In this document: in pieces, positions 55,751 to 62,903 of the stretch
How positions within the stretch are numbered: the stretch's first letter is position 1
Layout: the number at the start of each line of letters is the position of its first letter
Origin: Parvularcula sp. LCG005
GTDB taxonomy: Bacteria > Pseudomonadota > Alphaproteobacteria > Caulobacterales > Parvularculaceae
NCBI RefSeq assembly: GCF_032930845.1
Contig: NZ_CP136758.1
Location: 2,061,001 to 2,125,000 of the forward strand
Reading direction: 5' to 3'
Length of the DNA stretch: 64,000 nt
Program-made: the position numbers and the translations under genes
The notes under the pieces: model-generated
The model's input: the letters and a program-made list of their open reading frames with translations, nothing else
Database searches by the model: none
What the model was told of the DNA's origin: nothing

Positions 55751-55841
55751 GGCGGCCTTATATGCGCTTTGACACGACACGCTAGATGGAGCGCCATATC
55801 CGGGCGCCGGATGCGACCATAGACCACTGGAGATGCCCCTG

Positions 55842-56063
55842 ATGACGCCCATGAAACCGCGCCAGAAAAAGCTGATCATCGCCCTGGGCGTGGTGCCGTT
55901 TCTGGTCGTCTATGCGGGGCTGTGCGTGTGGATATCCGACTACCTGCCTGACCACTGGCTGGTGCGGCTCATCTACTACATATTCGTCGGCACAGTGTGG
56001 GCGTTCCCCCTCAAGCCCGTGATGAAGTGGATGAACCACGACCCGGACTATCCGGCGGTGTGA
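55842..56063 (+). CDS. DUF2842 family small membrane protein
   Basis: 73 residues, two membrane helices: KKLIIALGVVPFLVVYAGLCVW (about 9-30) and LIYYIFVGTVWAFPLKPVMKWM (about 43-64), the DUF2842 pattern in alphaproteobacteria. Function unknown. ATG 55842 is preferred since GGAG lies nine bases upstream; ATG 55833 would be adjacent to it. Divergent from ctaA. Confidence 0.82.
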   Translation: MTPMKPRQKKLIIALGVVPFLVVYAGLCVWISDYLPDHWLVRLIYYIFVGTVWAFPLKPVMKWMNHDPDYPAV

Positions 56064-56142
56064 GGCTAACTAACGATCTGGGGTGAGCCTACTTTTAATT
56101 CAGCACCCATTGCTGGTACGACTCTTTCAGAGGAGAGAGAAT

Positions 56143-57138
56143 ATGAGCATTTGGGGAATCGTCAGAAAACTTTTCAGCGGTAAGGAAAGCGAACCGCCTG
56201 AGATCTCGTCCTATCGACGCACCGTGCAAATGCCCGAAGAAGACGGACCAGATGAGCTGGACACTTCGGACTTCAATCAAGACGCCGCCTTCCTGTCTCA
56301 AGACAGCAAACCAAGCAGAAAACAGTCGCAGAAAAAATCGACTAGCGAAAAAGAAATTTTGGATGGCGATCTTTGGGGGACGACATTCGCAATAGAATAC
56401 AAATGCGCAAAAAAACTGATTAGTACACGTCGCGTTTCGATGCGACATTTCATCCTGACACACGGAAAGTCACTTTGCCTGTCGGCTTATTGTCACGAAA
56501 GAAATGCACTCAGGCATTTCCGATTTGACCGAATTATTAGTGTCATTGATGACGACGGCGAAGTCTACGATCCTATCGTATTCTTTAGAGACGAACTCCA
56601 TTGCCCGATTAGTCATTATATCGACAAAGCCTGCGTCGTGAAATCAACCCGTCCAGTCGAATCTGTGGCTTCCGCGCCTATCCAGAAGACGGGAGAAAAA
56701 CCAAACCACGAAGAGCGAAAGCCAGGCGTCGCGCATCGGGCCGTTTGCCGAGATGGGCTTCGCATCCTCGTCGGAATTGCGCGCAGTGACGGCGACTATT
56801 GTCAATCAGAATTGGATGCGATTCTTGCCTACGTCGAGTCAGAGTCCGAGATCGCCGGTTTGCTCACGAACGAGTCAGATCGTTCGTATCTGTCAGGATA
56901 CTTGAAGCGACAGCGTCCAGATGCTGCCGTTCTGGATAAGTGCATCGAAAAATTATCCGTCGCCCCGATAGCAGACCAAGTTAGATTTTTAACGTCCGCA
57001 AAAGCAGTCGTTCTTGCAGACGGGCAGATTCACCCGGCCGAAATAGAAATTCTTGATCAAATCGGATCGGTACTGAAGCGGCCAACAGGTATGTCCAACG
57101 AGCTGCAAACGCTTTCGCTTCACCCGCCCGTCATGTGA
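56143..57138 (+). CDS. WYL-like and TerB-like domain protein
   Basis: 331 residues, cytoplasmic, visibly lower in GC than its neighbours. N-terminal low-complexity region (about 1-85). Middle part (about 90-165) matches a WYL-type domain: IEYKCAKKLISTRRVSMRHFIL, LSAYCHERNALRHFRFDRI, IISVIDDDGEV. C-terminal part (about 205-325) resembles TerB: GLRILVGIARSDGDYCQSELDAI and KAVVLADGQIHPAEIEILDQI, with paired acidic residues (SDGD, ADGQ) that could bind metal. Both domains recur in stress and defence regulators. Ends 19 bp inside the convergent mntP 3' end. Possibly acquired by transfer. Confidence 0.72.
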   Translation: MSIWGIVRKLFSGKESEPPEISSYRRTVQMPEEDGPDELDTSDFNQDAAFLSQDSKPSRKQSQKKSTSEKEILDGDLWGTTFAIEYKCAKKLISTRRVSMRHFILTHGKSLCLSAYCHERNALRHFRFDRIISVIDDDGEVYDPIVFFRDELHCPISHYIDKACVVKSTRPVESVASAPIQKTGEKPNHEERKPGVAHRAVCRDGLRILVGIARSDGDYCQSELDAILAYVESESEIAGLLTNESDRSYLSGYLKRQRPDAAVLDKCIEKLSVAPIADQVRFLTSAKAVVLADGQIHPAEIEILDQIGSVLKRPTGMSNELQTLSLHPPVM

Positions 57139-57683
57139 GAGACAAATATCGACACGCCGATCAGGATCAGGATGACGCCGCCGCCGATTTCGGCGCGGTG
57201 ACCCAGCTTCTCGCCCACTTTCGGACCCACGAGGAAACCGGCCGTGCTGGCCATGAAGCTGACCAAACCGACCAGCAGCGCAACGCTCGCCGGCCCACCG
57301 GCAAGGGACAGGGCGATGCCCACGGCGGCGGAATCGATACTCGTGCCCATGGCAGTGACCAGGGTCATGGCCAGGCCCTGCTCCGCTCGCGGGGCGTCGT
57401 CATCATCGTCGCCTGACAGGCCCTCGCGGATCATCCGCACGCCGATAACCGTCAGCAGAATGAGCGCGATCCAGTGATCGGCGGCGGTGATGAACTGGGC
57501 GAAGCTGGCCCCGGCCAGCCAGCCCGTGAGGCACATCACCCCTTCCATCCCGCCAAAGATTGCGCCTGAGCCGAGCGCCGCCTGCAGATCCACGCGCCGC
57601 GCCCGCCCGCCGCGCGCCAATGACGCGGCAAAGGCATCGGTGGACAGGCCAAGGGACAGCGGCAACCAGGTGAACAAGGACAT
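57120..57683 (-). CDS. mntP: Manganese efflux pump MntP
   Basis: 187 residues, six membrane helices in two repeats. FTWLPLSLGLSTDAFAASLARG and LAMTLVTAMGTSIDSAAVGIAL are the two hallmark segments with the membrane Asp residues needed for Mn2+ export. ATG 57683 is chosen; the longer frame reaches back over the end of the acetylesterase gene. It follows that gene by 52 nt on the same strand, and no yybP-like riboswitch could fit. Confidence 0.93.
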   Translation of the reverse strand: MSLFTWLPLSLGLSTDAFAASLARGGRARRVDLQAALGSGAIFGGMEGVMCLTGWLAGASFAQFITAADHWIALILLTVIGVRMIREGLSGDDDDDAPRAEQGLAMTLVTAMGTSIDSAAVGIALSLAGGPASVALLVGLVSFMASTAGFLVGPKVGEKLGHRAEIGGGVILILIGVSIFVSHMTGG

Positions 57684-57735
57684 GGGCGGGCCCCTACCCC
57701 ACCGGCCTGATACTGACCAGTGGGGATTGGCGTCG

Positions 57736-59652
57736 TCAGTCGACGGTGACTTCGAACGGCGTGATCGGCGTATCGCCCTGATCAAACAGGGTGCAGACCG
57801 GCGCTTCACCCCAACAGTACCGCACTTTGTCCACAGGCTTGGCCGATGGCAGGGTCAGGACGACACTGTCCTTGTCGATCGACGCGGGGACGATCTGGCA
57901 GGTGCCCTCTGCGCAAGCCTCAAACCCGATCGGCGTGCTCATCGCGGCGCGCAGGTCACCATTCAGCGGTGCGAAGCTGATCGTCAGTTGCTTTTTCTTC
58001 TGGGTCACCGACACCGGCTGGGGCCCGTCGCCACCGGCCGCATCGCCGTCCATCAGGGCCAGCGCAGATGTAGCAACCCGTTTGGCCACCGCCTGCTTGT
58101 TCGGCGGATGGATGTCGTAGCGGTCACCCACATCGATGGTCACGGCGATCCCGGTCTGGTCATCGTTCAGCGCGACCTGGCGCATCGCCTCCCGCACCTC
58201 GGCCCAGCCGCTTTCAACCGGACCGAAGGGGACGGGCCCGAAATTGGGAAGCTGGACGATGACGGTGATGAGGTCTTCGCCGAAATGCGCCTGCCAGTCA
58301 TCAACGAGCGCGGACATCAGCGGCTCATATTCGCTCGCCCGACCCGCATTGCTTTCACCCTGATACCAAAGCGCGCCCGTCATCGTGAAATGGCGGAACG
58401 GATGCAGCATCGTATTGTAAAGGCTGGTCAGCCCACTGATCGATTCCCAAGGCGCCCGGGGCGGTGCTCCATAAGCCTTTGGTGCGATCTTGTAGGACCA
58501 GTCGGTCAGAGGCACAGTATTGCCGCTTGGGAGCGTCGCACCGATATTGTCTGTGCCCGTAATACCGCCTGCGCCCCAGCTGTTATAGATGTTCAGAACG
58601 ATGGTGTTTTCACCGGCCTTCAAAAGATCGCCGTCAACCGTATAAACGCGCTCAGACCCCCAGCCAAAGGTCGTGCCCACATAGGTGCCATTGACCCAGA
58701 TCGTGTCCAGCTCATCGATGCCGCCCACATTGATTGCCACATCGCCGCCGTCGTAACTGTCAGGCAGCGTCAGGTTGGCCCGGTGCCAGACCATACCCAG
58801 ATGATCTTTCAGTTCAGGGTCGTCCCAGTCCTTCCAGTCGCCAAGACCGTCAGGCGCGGCACTCCATTCGCTTTCATCCGTCCACGGCTGGTCACCGGCA
58901 GGTGCCTTTTCCGCCCACCAGTCGAGCCAGATGTCCGCAAACTTCGCTTTCGCTGCGGCGGGGTCATCGCCGTAAATGTTGAGAAGATCGACGCCTTGGG
59001 GGTTGATGCCGCCGGCCTTCATTGCATCAAGGCTGAGCCACGCTTCGATCTGGGAGCCGCCCCAATTGCTGTCGATCAGGCCGAGCGGCATATCCGGGTT
59101 CGCCTCGCGCAGATGGCGCGCGGTAAAATAGCAGACCGCAGAGAACTCTTTTACCGTGTCGGCAGAGGCCACAGCCCACGGCACGGGCGTCACCAGCTCA
59201 TCCTGCGGCACCGGCGCGTATTCCATGTTCACTTCGATCAGCCGGATCTGATCATCGTGGGGCCGCCCGACCTCATAGCCGCCATTCAGCGCGCGGGAGA
59301 CCGGGAATTCCATGTTCGACTGGCCTGAGCACAGCCACACATCCCCGGCCAGAACGTCAGAAACGGTCTGGGTTTCCTTGCCGGATGTCGCTGTGATCAT
59401 GAACGCCTCCCCCACGCTGAGGGCGGGCCATTCCGCCGACCACGCGCCGTCGCCGTCGGCGGTCACCGTCTTCTCATCGCCCGCAAGCCTGACCACGACT
59501 TCCGCGCCAGGCTCAACATGCCCCCAAAGCGTGACGGGCTTGCCCTGCTGCAGGACCATGTGGTCGCCGAAGACGTTGCTCAGCGGTGCGGCATGGGCGG
59601 CCGTCGCGGCACAAAGGGCGATAGCGCTAACAAGGAGTGAGTGACGTTGCAT
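57736..59652 (-). CDS. Sialate O-acetylesterase (SASA) family protein, exported
   Basis: 638 residues with a signal peptide (about 1-21). A SGNH-type esterase: GDVWLCSGQSNMEFPVSRAL has the nucleophile Ser, WYQGESNAGRASEYEPLM the second conserved block, and DVGDRYDIHPPNKQAVAKR the Asp-His pair. The insert (about 250-370) is a jelly-roll with YTVDGDLLKAGENTIVLNIYNSWG. In bacteria that eat plant or algal polysaccharides such enzymes often remove acetyl groups from xylan or pectin as well as sialic acid; no sialic-acid genes are in view, so the substrate is open. Confidence 0.9.
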   Translation of the reverse strand: MQRHSLLVSAIALCAATAAHAAPLSNVFGDHMVLQQGKPVTLWGHVEPGAEVVVRLAGDEKTVTADGDGAWSAEWPALSVGEAFMITATSGKETQTVSDVLAGDVWLCSGQSNMEFPVSRALNGGYEVGRPHDDQIRLIEVNMEYAPVPQDELVTPVPWAVASADTVKEFSAVCYFTARHLREANPDMPLGLIDSNWGGSQIEAWLSLDAMKAGGINPQGVDLLNIYGDDPAAAKAKFADIWLDWWAEKAPAGDQPWTDESEWSAAPDGLGDWKDWDDPELKDHLGMVWHRANLTLPDSYDGGDVAINVGGIDELDTIWVNGTYVGTTFGWGSERVYTVDGDLLKAGENTIVLNIYNSWGAGGITGTDNIGATLPSGNTVPLTDWSYKIAPKAYGAPPRAPWESISGLTSLYNTMLHPFRHFTMTGALWYQGESNAGRASEYEPLMSALVDDWQAHFGEDLITVIVQLPNFGPVPFGPVESGWAEVREAMRQVALNDDQTGIAVTIDVGDRYDIHPPNKQAVAKRVATSALALMDGDAAGGDGPQPVSVTQKKKQLTISFAPLNGDLRAAMSTPIGFEACAEGTCQIVPASIDKDSVVLTLPSAKPVDKVRYCWGEAPVCTLFDQGDTPITPFEVTVD

Positions 59653-59799
59653 GGGTTATAGTCCCGTCTGGTTGTTTCTTCCCGATCACTTTGTGCCCCC
59701 AACGCGCTTGGCAAGGCAAGGCTTAGGCATGACGCCCGCGATTGACGCCGTGCAGGACATGGAGCACCGTGCCGTCTGGCGTTGGATGGGAAGAGGAAC

Positions 59800-60513
59800 A
59801 TGCGGGCAGTCATTCTTCTGAGCAGCACCATGCTTCTCCAGCCCGTCGCCCTGACACCGGCAGCGATGGCCTCCTCCGCCCCGCCGATCATGCAGCCCGG
59901 GCCACCCGGCACTGCCAGCCAGCCCATCACCGTCGACGAATCGCTGGCTCTTGGACGTACGAGCTATTCCGCCGCCGATGTCGCCTTCATGCAGCACATG
60001 ATCGTGCATCATGCCCAGGCGGTTGAAATGGTGGCCCTGATTTCCGAGCGCACCACCGCGCCGCAGGTTGTGAGGATGGGAGAGCGGATCAGCCTTTCAC
60101 AGGCGACCGAGATGGCCTTCATGCAGCAATGGCTGGAGACACGCGGCGAGCCCGTGGCGATGCCCCGCCATGCCCCCATGATGCACGCACCCAAGGGGCA
60201 TGAGCATCATAAACCCGGCATGGACATGACCGATCCCATGGACACGCCGCTGATGCCGGGCATGTTGTCGCCCCGACAGATGATGACGCTGGAAGCCGCC
60301 AGCGGAACTGCATTTGATCGCCTGTTTCTTGCGGCGATGATCCAGCATCATGAAGGCGCACTGGGCATGGTCCACGACCTGCTGGCCACCCCCAATGGCG
60401 GGGAGGATCCCGACCTGTCCGAATTTCTCACGGCTGTCATCGCCGACCAGTCTGCCGAAATCATTCGCATGAAGACCATTCTGAGTGCCATTCCTGACCC
60501 AGCTGTCAATTAA
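59800..60513 (+). CDS. Exported DUF305 protein with Met/His-rich centre
   Basis: 237 residues, signal peptide about 1-24. DUF305 (ferritin-like helical domain) is present as two parts: DVAFMQHMIVHHAQAVEMVALI near 65 and FLAAMIQHHEGALGMVHDLLA near 185. Between them is a Met/His-rich stretch (APMMHAPKGHEHHKPGMDMT) that could bind copper or another metal. AAGAGGAAC precedes the ATG. A gene for an LVIVD-repeat lipoprotein follows after 12 nt, a partnership also seen in other bacteria. Confidence 0.9.
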   Translation: MRAVILLSSTMLLQPVALTPAAMASSAPPIMQPGPPGTASQPITVDESLALGRTSYSAADVAFMQHMIVHHAQAVEMVALISERTTAPQVVRMGERISLSQATEMAFMQQWLETRGEPVAMPRHAPMMHAPKGHEHHKPGMDMTDPMDTPLMPGMLSPRQMMTLEAASGTAFDRLFLAAMIQHHEGALGMVHDLLATPNGGEDPDLSEFLTAVIADQSAEIIRMKTILSAIPDPAVN

Positions 60514-60525
60514 GAGGTTACGACC

Positions 60526-62367
60526 ATGACGATGACCACCCGCACCCTCTTTGCCGCTGCGCTCATGGGCGCGAGCCTTGCTGCGTGTTCGACAACCGAT
60601 ATCGTCTTGCCGCCGATGGACGCCCCGCCACCGCATCAGGACACGCGCGCAGGCCTGGCACCGGGCCTTTACGATGCCGGTGAAGCGAACTGGAACCTCA
60701 CGCTTGTGCAGTCCCTTCCGCAGCCTGAAGGGTTTGTGGACAGTGAAGGCCAATGGTCGCCCCAGATTGAAATGGCGCTCGCCAAGGATATGGAAGACGG
60801 CAAGGACGTCCCCCGCCCGCCAAAAGGCATTTCCTTCGCCAATTCCGACCTCGCCTTTGGCAAGGATATGGTGGTCATGGGCAATTTCCATGGCTTCAAC
60901 GTCTATAAGGTCGGCAGCAACAGCAAACTGAAACACGCCCTTTCTGTGGCCTGTCCCGGCGGCCAGGGCGATGTGTCGATCCACGGCAATCTGGTATTTT
61001 TCTCGACCGAGCAGCGTCGTGGGCGCCTTGATTGCGGCGGCGGCGGGGTAGAAGGGGAGAGCAGCGCCGAGCGGTTTATCGGTGTGCGCATCTTTGACAT
61101 CAGTGACCTTTCTGCGCCGCGTCAGGTTGCGGCTGTTCAGACCTGTCGGGGGTCCCACACCCACACTCTCGTCCCTCACCCGACGGACCCCGGTATTCTG
61201 TACGTCTATAATAGCGGGACCTCTGCGGTCCGCCCCAGTTCAGAACTGGCTGGCTGTTCGGACGGCGATCCCGGCGACAATCCGGACACGGCCCTTTATT
61301 CGATCGATGTGATCGAAGTGCCGCTTGATGCCCCCCAGAACGCGCGTGTCGTCAACAGCCCCCGCGTCTTTGCCGACCGCGATAGCGGGAAGGTCGACGG
61401 GCTGTGGGAGGGCGGAGAAATGACCGAGGACGCCCAGACGACGGCCGCCACCGTCGCGTGCCATGATATCCTCGCCTATCCTGAATTCGCCCTCGCGGCG
61501 GGGGCCTGCGGCGGGAATGGCATCCTTCTCGACATTTCCGATCCTGTGAACCCGCGGCGGATTGATGAGGTCTCCGATCCCAATATGGCCTATTGGCACT
61601 CCGCCAATTTCAACAATGACGCCACAAAGCTTCTGTTTGCGGATGAGTGGGGCGGCGGCATCGCCGCGCGGTGCCAGGCCGATGATCCGCCCGAATGGGG
61701 CGCCGACATCATCTATGACCGGACCGAGAGCGGGCTCGAAAAGCGTGGCATGTTCAAGATACCGACCGTTCAAACCGCACAGGAAAACTGCGTCAGCCAC
61801 AATGGGCAGCTGATCCCCGTCCCCGGACGGGATATCCTCGTCCAGGGCTGGTATAGCGGCGGGATCTCGGTGATCGACTTTACGGATTCCGAGCATCCGA
61901 TCGAGATCGCTTATTTCGACCGCGGGCCGGTCAGCGCGGAGAACCTTTATCTCGCCGGGCACTGGGCCGCCTACTGGCACAATGGCCGGATCTATGCGCC
62001 GGAGATTGCGCGCGGTCTCGACGTTCTGGAGTTGGTCCCCAGCGATTATCTGACGGCCAATGAAATCGCCGCTGCTGAACTCATCACCTATGACGAGGCC
62101 AACACCCAGACGCAGGTCATGGCCAACTGGCCCGCCGAGCCCGTCGTGGCCCGCGCCTATGTGGATCAGCTCTGGCGAACCGATGCGATTGACGAGGCGC
62201 TGGCGAAAGATGTGCTGTCCGCCGTTGCAGAGTGGGATGCCGGACGCTGGGACGCGCAGCTGATGACCGATCTCGCCGAAGCGTTGGGCGGTGCGGCGGA
62301 GCGGAGCGAAGGCAAGACCGCCGAACGTTACGCGGCGCTGGCCGAGATTCTCGGCGAAGCGCGCTGA
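60526..62367 (+). CDS. LVIVD-repeat lipoprotein
   Basis: 613 residues, lipobox LAAC (Cys20). LVIVD-type propeller: NFHGFNVYKVGS, GVRIFDISDLSAPRQVA, GNGILLDISDPVNPRRIDEV, GGISVIDFTDSEHPIEIAY are successive blades. GSHTHTLVP, YWHSANFNNDATKLLFADEW and WAAYWHNGRIYAPEI hold conserved His residues. Ten or so Cys outside the signal suggest disulfides. The C-terminal helical segment (about 515-613) is Ala/Glu-rich. It is cotranscribed with the DUF305 gene upstream; both are surface or periplasmic, so they may form one complex of unknown function. Confidence 0.88.
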   Translation: MTMTTRTLFAAALMGASLAACSTTDIVLPPMDAPPPHQDTRAGLAPGLYDAGEANWNLTLVQSLPQPEGFVDSEGQWSPQIEMALAKDMEDGKDVPRPPKGISFANSDLAFGKDMVVMGNFHGFNVYKVGSNSKLKHALSVACPGGQGDVSIHGNLVFFSTEQRRGRLDCGGGGVEGESSAERFIGVRIFDISDLSAPRQVAAVQTCRGSHTHTLVPHPTDPGILYVYNSGTSAVRPSSELAGCSDGDPGDNPDTALYSIDVIEVPLDAPQNARVVNSPRVFADRDSGKVDGLWEGGEMTEDAQTTAATVACHDILAYPEFALAAGACGGNGILLDISDPVNPRRIDEVSDPNMAYWHSANFNNDATKLLFADEWGGGIAARCQADDPPEWGADIIYDRTESGLEKRGMFKIPTVQTAQENCVSHNGQLIPVPGRDILVQGWYSGGISVIDFTDSEHPIEIAYFDRGPVSAENLYLAGHWAAYWHNGRIYAPEIARGLDVLELVPSDYLTANEIAAAELITYDEANTQTQVMANWPAEPVVARAYVDQLWRTDAIDEALAKDVLSAVAEWDAGRWDAQLMTDLAEALGGAAERSEGKTAERYAALAEILGEAR

Positions 62368-62402
62368 TCGGCGCACATGCCCTGCATTAAAGGAGAGACA
62401 GT

Positions 62403-62750
62403 ATGACCTATGTTGATGGTGTGGTCGCAGCCGTCCCGAAAGCCAACAAGGACCAGTATCTGAAACACGCGACGCTGGCCGCCGCTATCTTCAGGAAACA
62501 TGGCGCGCTTTCGGTCACCGAATGCTGGGGCAACGATGTGCCGGAGGGGAAGAACAACTCCCTGCATACCGCCGTCATGCGCAAAGACGACGAAGAGATC
62601 GTTTTCTCGTGGATCAAATGGCCCTCCAAAGAGGTCCGCGACGCCGGCTGGGCGAAAATCATGGAAGACCCTGAAATGCAGAAACATGAAATGCCATTCG
62701 ATGGCAGTCGCATGATCTTTGGCGGCTTCGACGTGATGATGGAGGCGTAG
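62403..62750 (+). CDS. DUF1428 family protein (YbaA-like)
   Basis: 115 residues, dimeric alpha-beta barrel fold. YVDGVVAAVPKANKDQYLKHA, CWGNDVPEGKNNSLHTAV, FSWIKWPSKEVRDAGWAKIMED and FDGSRMIFGGFDVMME are the family pattern. Function unknown, possibly a small-molecule binding or oxygenase-like protein. AAGGAGAGAC before the ATG; 35 nt after the LVIVD gene, likely same transcript. Confidence 0.92.
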   Translation: MTYVDGVVAAVPKANKDQYLKHATLAAAIFRKHGALSVTECWGNDVPEGKNNSLHTAVMRKDDEEIVFSWIKWPSKEVRDAGWAKIMEDPEMQKHEMPFDGSRMIFGGFDVMMEA

Positions 62751-62825
62751 GCCGCGAGGCGATGCCTGCCCTCTTGCTCTTTTCGCGGCGATCCTGTACC
62801 CGCCCGTCCTCTAGCACTGAACGGT

Positions 62826-62903
62826 GGTCACTGTGACCGGGGATGGCCCCAACCGCAGTTGAGCCAAAGGCAGCAAGGCGACTCCCGCCGCGCCGTCTCC
62901 GCC
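62826..62903 (+). promoter_or_regulatory. Leader of rpsF with palindrome and bulged hairpin
   Basis: GGTCAC-T-GTGACC (62826-62838) is a perfect 13-nt palindrome. Further down GGC/GAC (62877-62882) can pair with GTC/GCC (62895-62897, 62901-62903) leaving bulge TCC. S6:S18 autoregulatory leaders form a stem with a 3-nt bulge, so this may be a variant; the bulge sequence differs from the CCG form remembered for the family. Confidence 0.3.

Follow-up and report, generated by a model that had tools for sequence, protein, structure and literature searches.

The window, a 64,000-nucleotide stretch of the Parvularcula sp. LCG005 genome, holds a gene at 56143–57138 (+ strand) whose 331-residue product joins a WYL domain to a TerB domain. 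The best overall explanation, to which we give a probability of about one half, is that an accessory gene of the type carried by alphaproteobacterial temperate phages was acquired laterally, now stands alone and encodes a WYL-TerB sensor-adaptor. Lateral acquisition is well supported and highly probable, and a prophage-type source is somewhat favoured. What is new is a prophage-linked WYL-TerB subfamily, which appears as a set of eight in the family tree: the parts of the protein are ordinary, and it is their combination and the prophage setting of the relatives that are unusual.

A lone gene bordering a variable region

The open reading frame comprises 331 open codons with an ATG start and is preceded, 7 bases upstream, by GAGGAG (56130–56135, +), read from the sequence as a likely ribosome-binding site. 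It lies between a DUF2842 gene (55833–56063, +) and the convergent mntP (57120–57692, −; Pfam Mntp, E 6.6e-38). Both neighbours are identified by Pfam, which supports the placement as a lone gene given in an earlier, sequence-only reading. The overlap with mntP noted there is also present, tail to tail at 57120–57138; a 19-bp convergent overlap is, however, not by itself evidence of insertion, as that reading had taken it to be. A search for insertion boundaries found no direct repeats of 11 or more bases in 55900–57400, and upstream of the gene there is no promoter match on its own strand. The codon content is AT-rich relative to the surroundings, again as first described: GC is 0.497 and GC3 0.509, against means of 0.606 and 0.709 (z −3.3 on both) in the 50 other window ORFs of at least 150 aa, a mechanically picked set in which some may not be genes. 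Within it, one ORF has lower GC3 and one has equal GC.

A family search of 62 genomes at 1e-5 matched only the window's own genome. The gene is missing from 61/61 other genomes of the family, 9 congeners included, and is therefore not core; this absence and the position in the tree described below argue for a lateral origin, so the earlier view of the gene as foreign rather than vertically inherited stands. A set of 60 relatives, drawn from as far out as the order, contains a single divergent homologue, in G045. A six-row profile at 1e-12 matches in 11 of the 298 other genomes of the same order and in 4/82 genomes of the order of G136, and an earlier two-row profile at 1e-8 matched in 11 of 384 other genomes of the class.

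CtaA and DUF2842 occur together in 9/9 congeners, which makes DUF2842 the conserved neighbour at the start of a variable region. The sequence after it differs between congeners, so that no exact empty site can be defined. The spacing between the DUF2842 and rpsF matches is about 1.1 kb in G007 and 2.1 kb in G006, the two congeners in which rpsF (window position 62843) fell in the stretch fetched, against 6.8 kb in the window. The region from DUF2842 to rpsF (56064–62842) holds the WYL-TerB gene, mntP, a SASA esterase gene, a DUF305 gene and an ORF at 60526–62367 that has no Pfam match. The longer spacing and the variable gene content after DUF2842 place the WYL-TerB gene at the edge of this region. 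A functional link to mntP was considered and dropped: mntP was not recognised by eye beside WYL-TerB homologues in the neighbourhoods inspected, and is itself patchy, with matches in 1/9 congeners and 4/40 relatives.

No phage genes were recognised around the locus, and the closest integrase is 486 kb away. The window gene does not occupy a prophage, the location that defines a moron, whereas many of its relatives do.

Relatives on prophage-like elements and elsewhere

In a tree of 26 members, the window protein falls in a set of eight (support 96/96) together with G301 and six rows carrying a “phage” label assigned by the analyst. These six copies sit on alphaproteobacterial prophage-like elements; several adjoin a repressor or antirepressor gene, and some lie near an integrase. 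The copy in G301 is surrounded by genes that appear, by eye, to be ordinary chromosomal ones. The nearest copies by tree path are those of Skermanella and G466, and all 11 homologues from the window's own order fall outside the set. Over the whole tree the “phage” label is not clustered (500/500 shuffles as low), so the prophage-type grouping of the window copy comes from the local set of eight alone, in a tree whose root is arbitrary, whose window end branch is long (1.36) and in which 13/23 inner branches are weak. The tree and the counts drawn from it omit the distant copies L056–L060 (five genomes), L079 and L080, in which the open frame stops after the WYL part, and L075, which is the protein of L074 again, truncated at a contig end. 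Judged by sequence, the window gene appears to belong to a prophage-type WYL-TerB subfamily, grouping with prophage copies over the other homologues.

The setting of the relatives is consistent with this assignment. An integrase lies within 6 kb of the WYL-TerB gene in 5/21 genomes (G510, G136, G543, G610 and G460) against 0.45 expected (P 6e-5) and within 15 kb in 6/21 against 1.07 expected (P 4e-4), counting integrases at E 1e-8 or better, a list outside which the integrase 2 kb from the G699 copy falls. An HTH_3 match over the cut-off lies within 1.5 kb in at least five of 20 genomes (G136, G510, G551, G699 and G648; window genome omitted) against 0.31 expected (P 1e-5), a lower bound, with the neighbours of the other loci scanned in part. 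These tests assume independence, and G510, G136 and G543 are of the same family, which makes the P values optimistic.

Four viral contigs of 42–45 kb (L070–L073) carry full-length relatives with 34–38% identity in the best segment. From identical protein sequences, two of them appear to be elements of Skermanella stibiiresistens and Azospirillum cavernae. The viral contig L074 (18.6 kb) has its WYL-TerB gene a short distance ahead of genes for an AntA antirepressor and a tape-measure protein, and the G610 copy is on a viral contig of 39 kb. Neighbours of the homologues were chosen by eye and then scanned with Pfam: S24 with HTH stands beside L081 (HTH below cut-off) and L078, an HTH_3 gene beside L071, L085, L111, L116 and L117, and an integrase near L081, L071 and L116. 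The HTH_31 neighbour of L114 is 0.1 bit under the cut-off and the Phage_pRha neighbour of L108 is also below it. DnaJ, with which the sequence-only reading had associated such proteins, was not recognised by eye in the neighbourhoods inspected. The viral contigs with WYL-TerB also hold a PAPS-reductase-like gene (L071, 1538–2746) and a DUF5131 gene (L122, 9295–10584).

The viral-contig profile scan yielded 11 loci. The window protein gave no tblastn match at 1e-5 in plasmid and phage collections; at 1e-3, the A. cavernae homologue gave none in plasmids or deposited phages, and the plasmids likewise held none for the G045 homologue. In a scan of genome contigs, the window protein alone confirmed no relative and an alignment (A4) confirmed two. 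In viral contigs, the G301 and G699 proteins confirmed none, a further alignment (A5) returned one locus, L077 again, and the G610 protein returned the G610 provirus.

Other copies are chromosomal or linked to defence genes. The genes around the copies in G175, G376, G045, G301 and G628 were judged chromosomal by eye. In three species of one genus (L109, L110 and L112) WYL-TerB stands beside an ELM1-like gene, with mnmA on the other side in L109 and L112, and within this genus its inheritance looks vertical. In G634, the copy is divergent to the Shango genes SngA, SngB and SngC (L113, 9688–16872; PADLOC E 9e-89, 8e-172 and 7e-267). In G580 (L118, 4997–13204), the copy has its start 4 bases within the end of a DUF4011 helicase gene that matches PDC-S37 (E 0), and an SMC/PtuA-like ATPase gene comes next, giving an operon-like trio. 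This trio is a candidate defence unit, and PDC itself is a label that we take to denote a candidate category. Such copies, and the chromosomal ones with three at one place in one genus, fit an account in which WYL-TerB serves defence or stress and travels from chromosome to chromosome by routes of its own, prophages being one of several vehicles and having little bearing on function. The window's tree set consists mostly of prophage rows, and the G634 and G580 copies both lie outside it; we consider this account unlikely for the window gene and prefer the temperate-phage-type origin.

Makarova et al. 2014 (PMC4012209) already name WYL-TerB fusions, with reference to Anantharaman et al. 2012. 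The domain combination is the same, but the prophage setting, the N-terminal segment and the neighbours are not described in the portion of that paper available to us. By title, no prophage WYL-TerB family appears among the literature matches listed, in which subscription journals are thinly covered, so that one may be in print.

A WYL barrel joined to a TerB domain

Pfam places WYL at residues 83–134 (E 5.1e-6; 26.8 bits, cut-off 21.8) and TerB at residues 209–312 (E 6.5e-6; 26.9 bits, cut-off 24.4), and both patterns first noticed in the translation are thereby confirmed over their cut-offs. In the prophage relatives TerB scores 17–23 bits, under the cut-off, and L073 is without a TerB match at E 0.01. 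The window protein is the genome's sole WYL match at E 0.001; the same genome has six other TerB matches, five of them over the cut-off. PADLOC gives three hits, all to WYL-bearing models (best E 1.3e-8) and none to Sng proteins. The best PHROG is phrog_6785 (E 3.1e-8), whose function is not assigned, and NCBIfam yields no match up to E 1.

An AlphaFold2 model built from 10 rows (mean pLDDT 72, pTM 0.67) contains a barrel at residues 80–135 and a helical domain at 196–310, mostly at high confidence; disorder is modelled ahead of the barrel and between the two domains. The N-terminal segment (residues 1–20; 56143–56202, +) resembles, in a six-member alignment, the MG.FD.L..LFRR..PP start of the prophage copies. 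An amphipathic helix at the N-terminus was rejected, as the hydrophobic moment of the window copy is not above that of shuffles (P 0.31); P is below 0.05 in 3/13 copies, and one copy lies under nearly all its shuffles (P 0.98). The WYL β-barrel (56380–56547, +), delimited by the model, Pfam, conservation and alignments with PafC and a WYL-ATPase, bears R96, C117, R120, R124, R127 and R130. It is followed by a disordered linker (residues 164–190; 56632–56712, +; model pLDDT below 50) and by the TerB helical domain (56728–57072, +), which is supported by Pfam, the model and conservation and contains D216, E223, D293 and E300.

The C-terminal tail, defined from the 26-member alignment, spans residues 312–331 (57076–57135, +). 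At this place 24 of the 25 other members have no more than 11 residues and G301 has 27; the tail could derive from an insertion junction. This unusual tail and the long end branch would suit a neutral stray or a decaying, now functionless remnant of a vanished prophage, as would the restriction to one genome, the lack of recognised partner genes and the lack of a promoter match on the gene's own strand. Against this, the open frame is full-length and has a good ribosome-binding site, and the groove and TerB signature residues are intact, which leaves decay a distinctly improbable explanation and the sensor-adaptor the preferred one.

A Foldseek search with the whole chain found nothing in the PDB or among viral structures with an E of 0.001 or lower. 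With VIA, the barrel aligns with the WYL domains of CapW (ssDNA-bound, Z 6.3), PafBC, BrxR and DriD, and the helical part aligns with 2h5n at Z 8.8; these values are modest, and 8.8 is within the tool's “possibly common” range for helical bundles. Globin rows in the same list are taken as reflecting a common helical arrangement. The family profile's sequence matches to PafBC, CapW-type and TerB chains agree with the fold matches. A helix-turn-helix (HTH) is absent from both the Pfam matches and the secondary structure of the model, so the window protein is not a WYL transcription factor of the PafBC, DriD, BrxR and CapW kind. As it has no DNA-binding domain, it is expected to work as a sensor-adaptor rather than a repressor.

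WYL domains are described as Sm-like barrels in which basic residues are conserved and a cysteine is frequent (PMC4012209). The window domain has this form in its model, its fold matches and its conserved residues: R96 is conserved in 24 of the 25 other members, C117 in all 25, R120 in 21, R124 in 22, R127 in 16 and R130 in 23. The R120-R124-R127-R130 spacing is the same as that of R204-R208-R211-R214 in PafB (numbers counted from the alignment), and R127/R130 align with R201/R204 of PafC. In the available text of PMC11804915, changes of PafB R211/R214, R181, R181/R204/R208 or Y196 abolish ssDNA binding by PafBC, and a change of PafC R201/R204 alone does not. Five of the window arginines (R96, R120, R124, R127 and R130) also align with R464, R491, R495, R498 and R501 of a Pif1-type WYL domain, chain 8bnv_A, which we infer from its residue numbering to be the Pif1 of PMC9964779; for these residues, ssDNA contacts are proposed there from a model. 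The position of the WYL-motif tyrosine (PafB Y196) is Cys112 in the window protein, which counts against full likeness. Cationic grooves are common to WYL domains according to PMC11804915, so the groove arginines do not single out ssDNA. Given five aligned arginines and a replaced motif tyrosine, ssDNA binding by the window WYL domain is a prediction, and we put the chance that this domain senses nucleic acid at roughly even.

Acidic residues of TerB bind metal, and D216, E223, D293 and E300 are invariant in 26/26 members. The sequence-only suggestion of a nucleic-acid or metal sensor is consistent with these residues and with the WYL arginines, and as to the ligand it stays a prediction. The same acidic residues could belong to a Ter-type sensor of metal or redox stress, in which TerB would do the sensing and the WYL barrel would bind protein; a shared manganese theme would then explain why mntP is the convergent neighbour. 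The high conservation of the WYL arginines speaks against this, as do the patchiness of mntP and its apparent absence, by eye, from the homologue neighbourhoods inspected; in one study, as far as its available text goes, terB was dispensable for tellurite resistance (PMC8779313). We regard a Ter-type sensor as quite improbable and favour the sensor-adaptor.

A proposed route from WYL to TerB

The protein probably combines a sensor of nucleic acid with a stress-response module. The arginine groove of the barrel would take up short ssDNA, or another nucleic-acid ligand, arising from damage or infection. The signal would then run across the flexible linker to the TerB helical domain, whose D..E pairs would probably hold a divalent cation and which would relay the signal to a protein partner. 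Its setting is probably phage competition or stress: in a lysogen, the protein would couple superinfection or damaged DNA to a response against phage or stress. A role in defence or superinfection is put forward tentatively. More doubtful still is the wider proposal of a prophage-borne adaptor family whose WYL domain would recognise ssDNA arising from damage or from the replication of phages, with TerB passing the signal on to Ter-type or Shango-like effectors and no transcription factor involved. If true, it would give lysogens a non-transcriptional WYL route for detecting superinfection or DNA damage. WYL proteins are known mainly as transcription-factor switches, and more than 90% of WYL sequences are reported to carry an HTH (PMC6789036). 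A compact WYL-TerB protein that occurs on prophages beside a repressor gene, and also next to defence genes, offers a small purifiable system for the use that TerB makes of a WYL signal.

The nearest known systems share parts of this design. PafBC (PMC11804915), DriD (PMC12340889) and CapW (PDB 9c5g), WYL transcription factors that bind ssDNA, have the same WYL barrel by fold, with conserved groove arginines; however, PafBC and DriD, as described in the accessible text, carry a winged HTH, whereas the window protein has none and has Cys for the motif tyrosine. In the Pif1 helicases with WYL (PMC9964779), the domain is found outside transcription factors, as it is here, but is joined to a helicase instead of TerB.

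Shango is an anti-phage system of TerB-like, ATPase and helicase proteins, as outlined in PMC10250203, and so sets a TerB-like protein in phage defence, with one distant WYL-TerB gene divergent to a Shango locus. The window gene, in contrast, is not SngA-like and has neither SngB nor SngC beside it: no Sng genes were found among the neighbours tested with Pfam, and the locus lacks the SngA, SngB and SngC combination that defines Shango. TerB is likewise carried by phages in Iyer et al. 2021 (PMC7824862), whose available text treats it as a standalone phage gene and proposes that Ter genes act against superinfecting phages. Those are jumbo phages, whereas the relatives here lie on alphaproteobacterial viral contigs of about 40–45 kb and have TerB fused to WYL.
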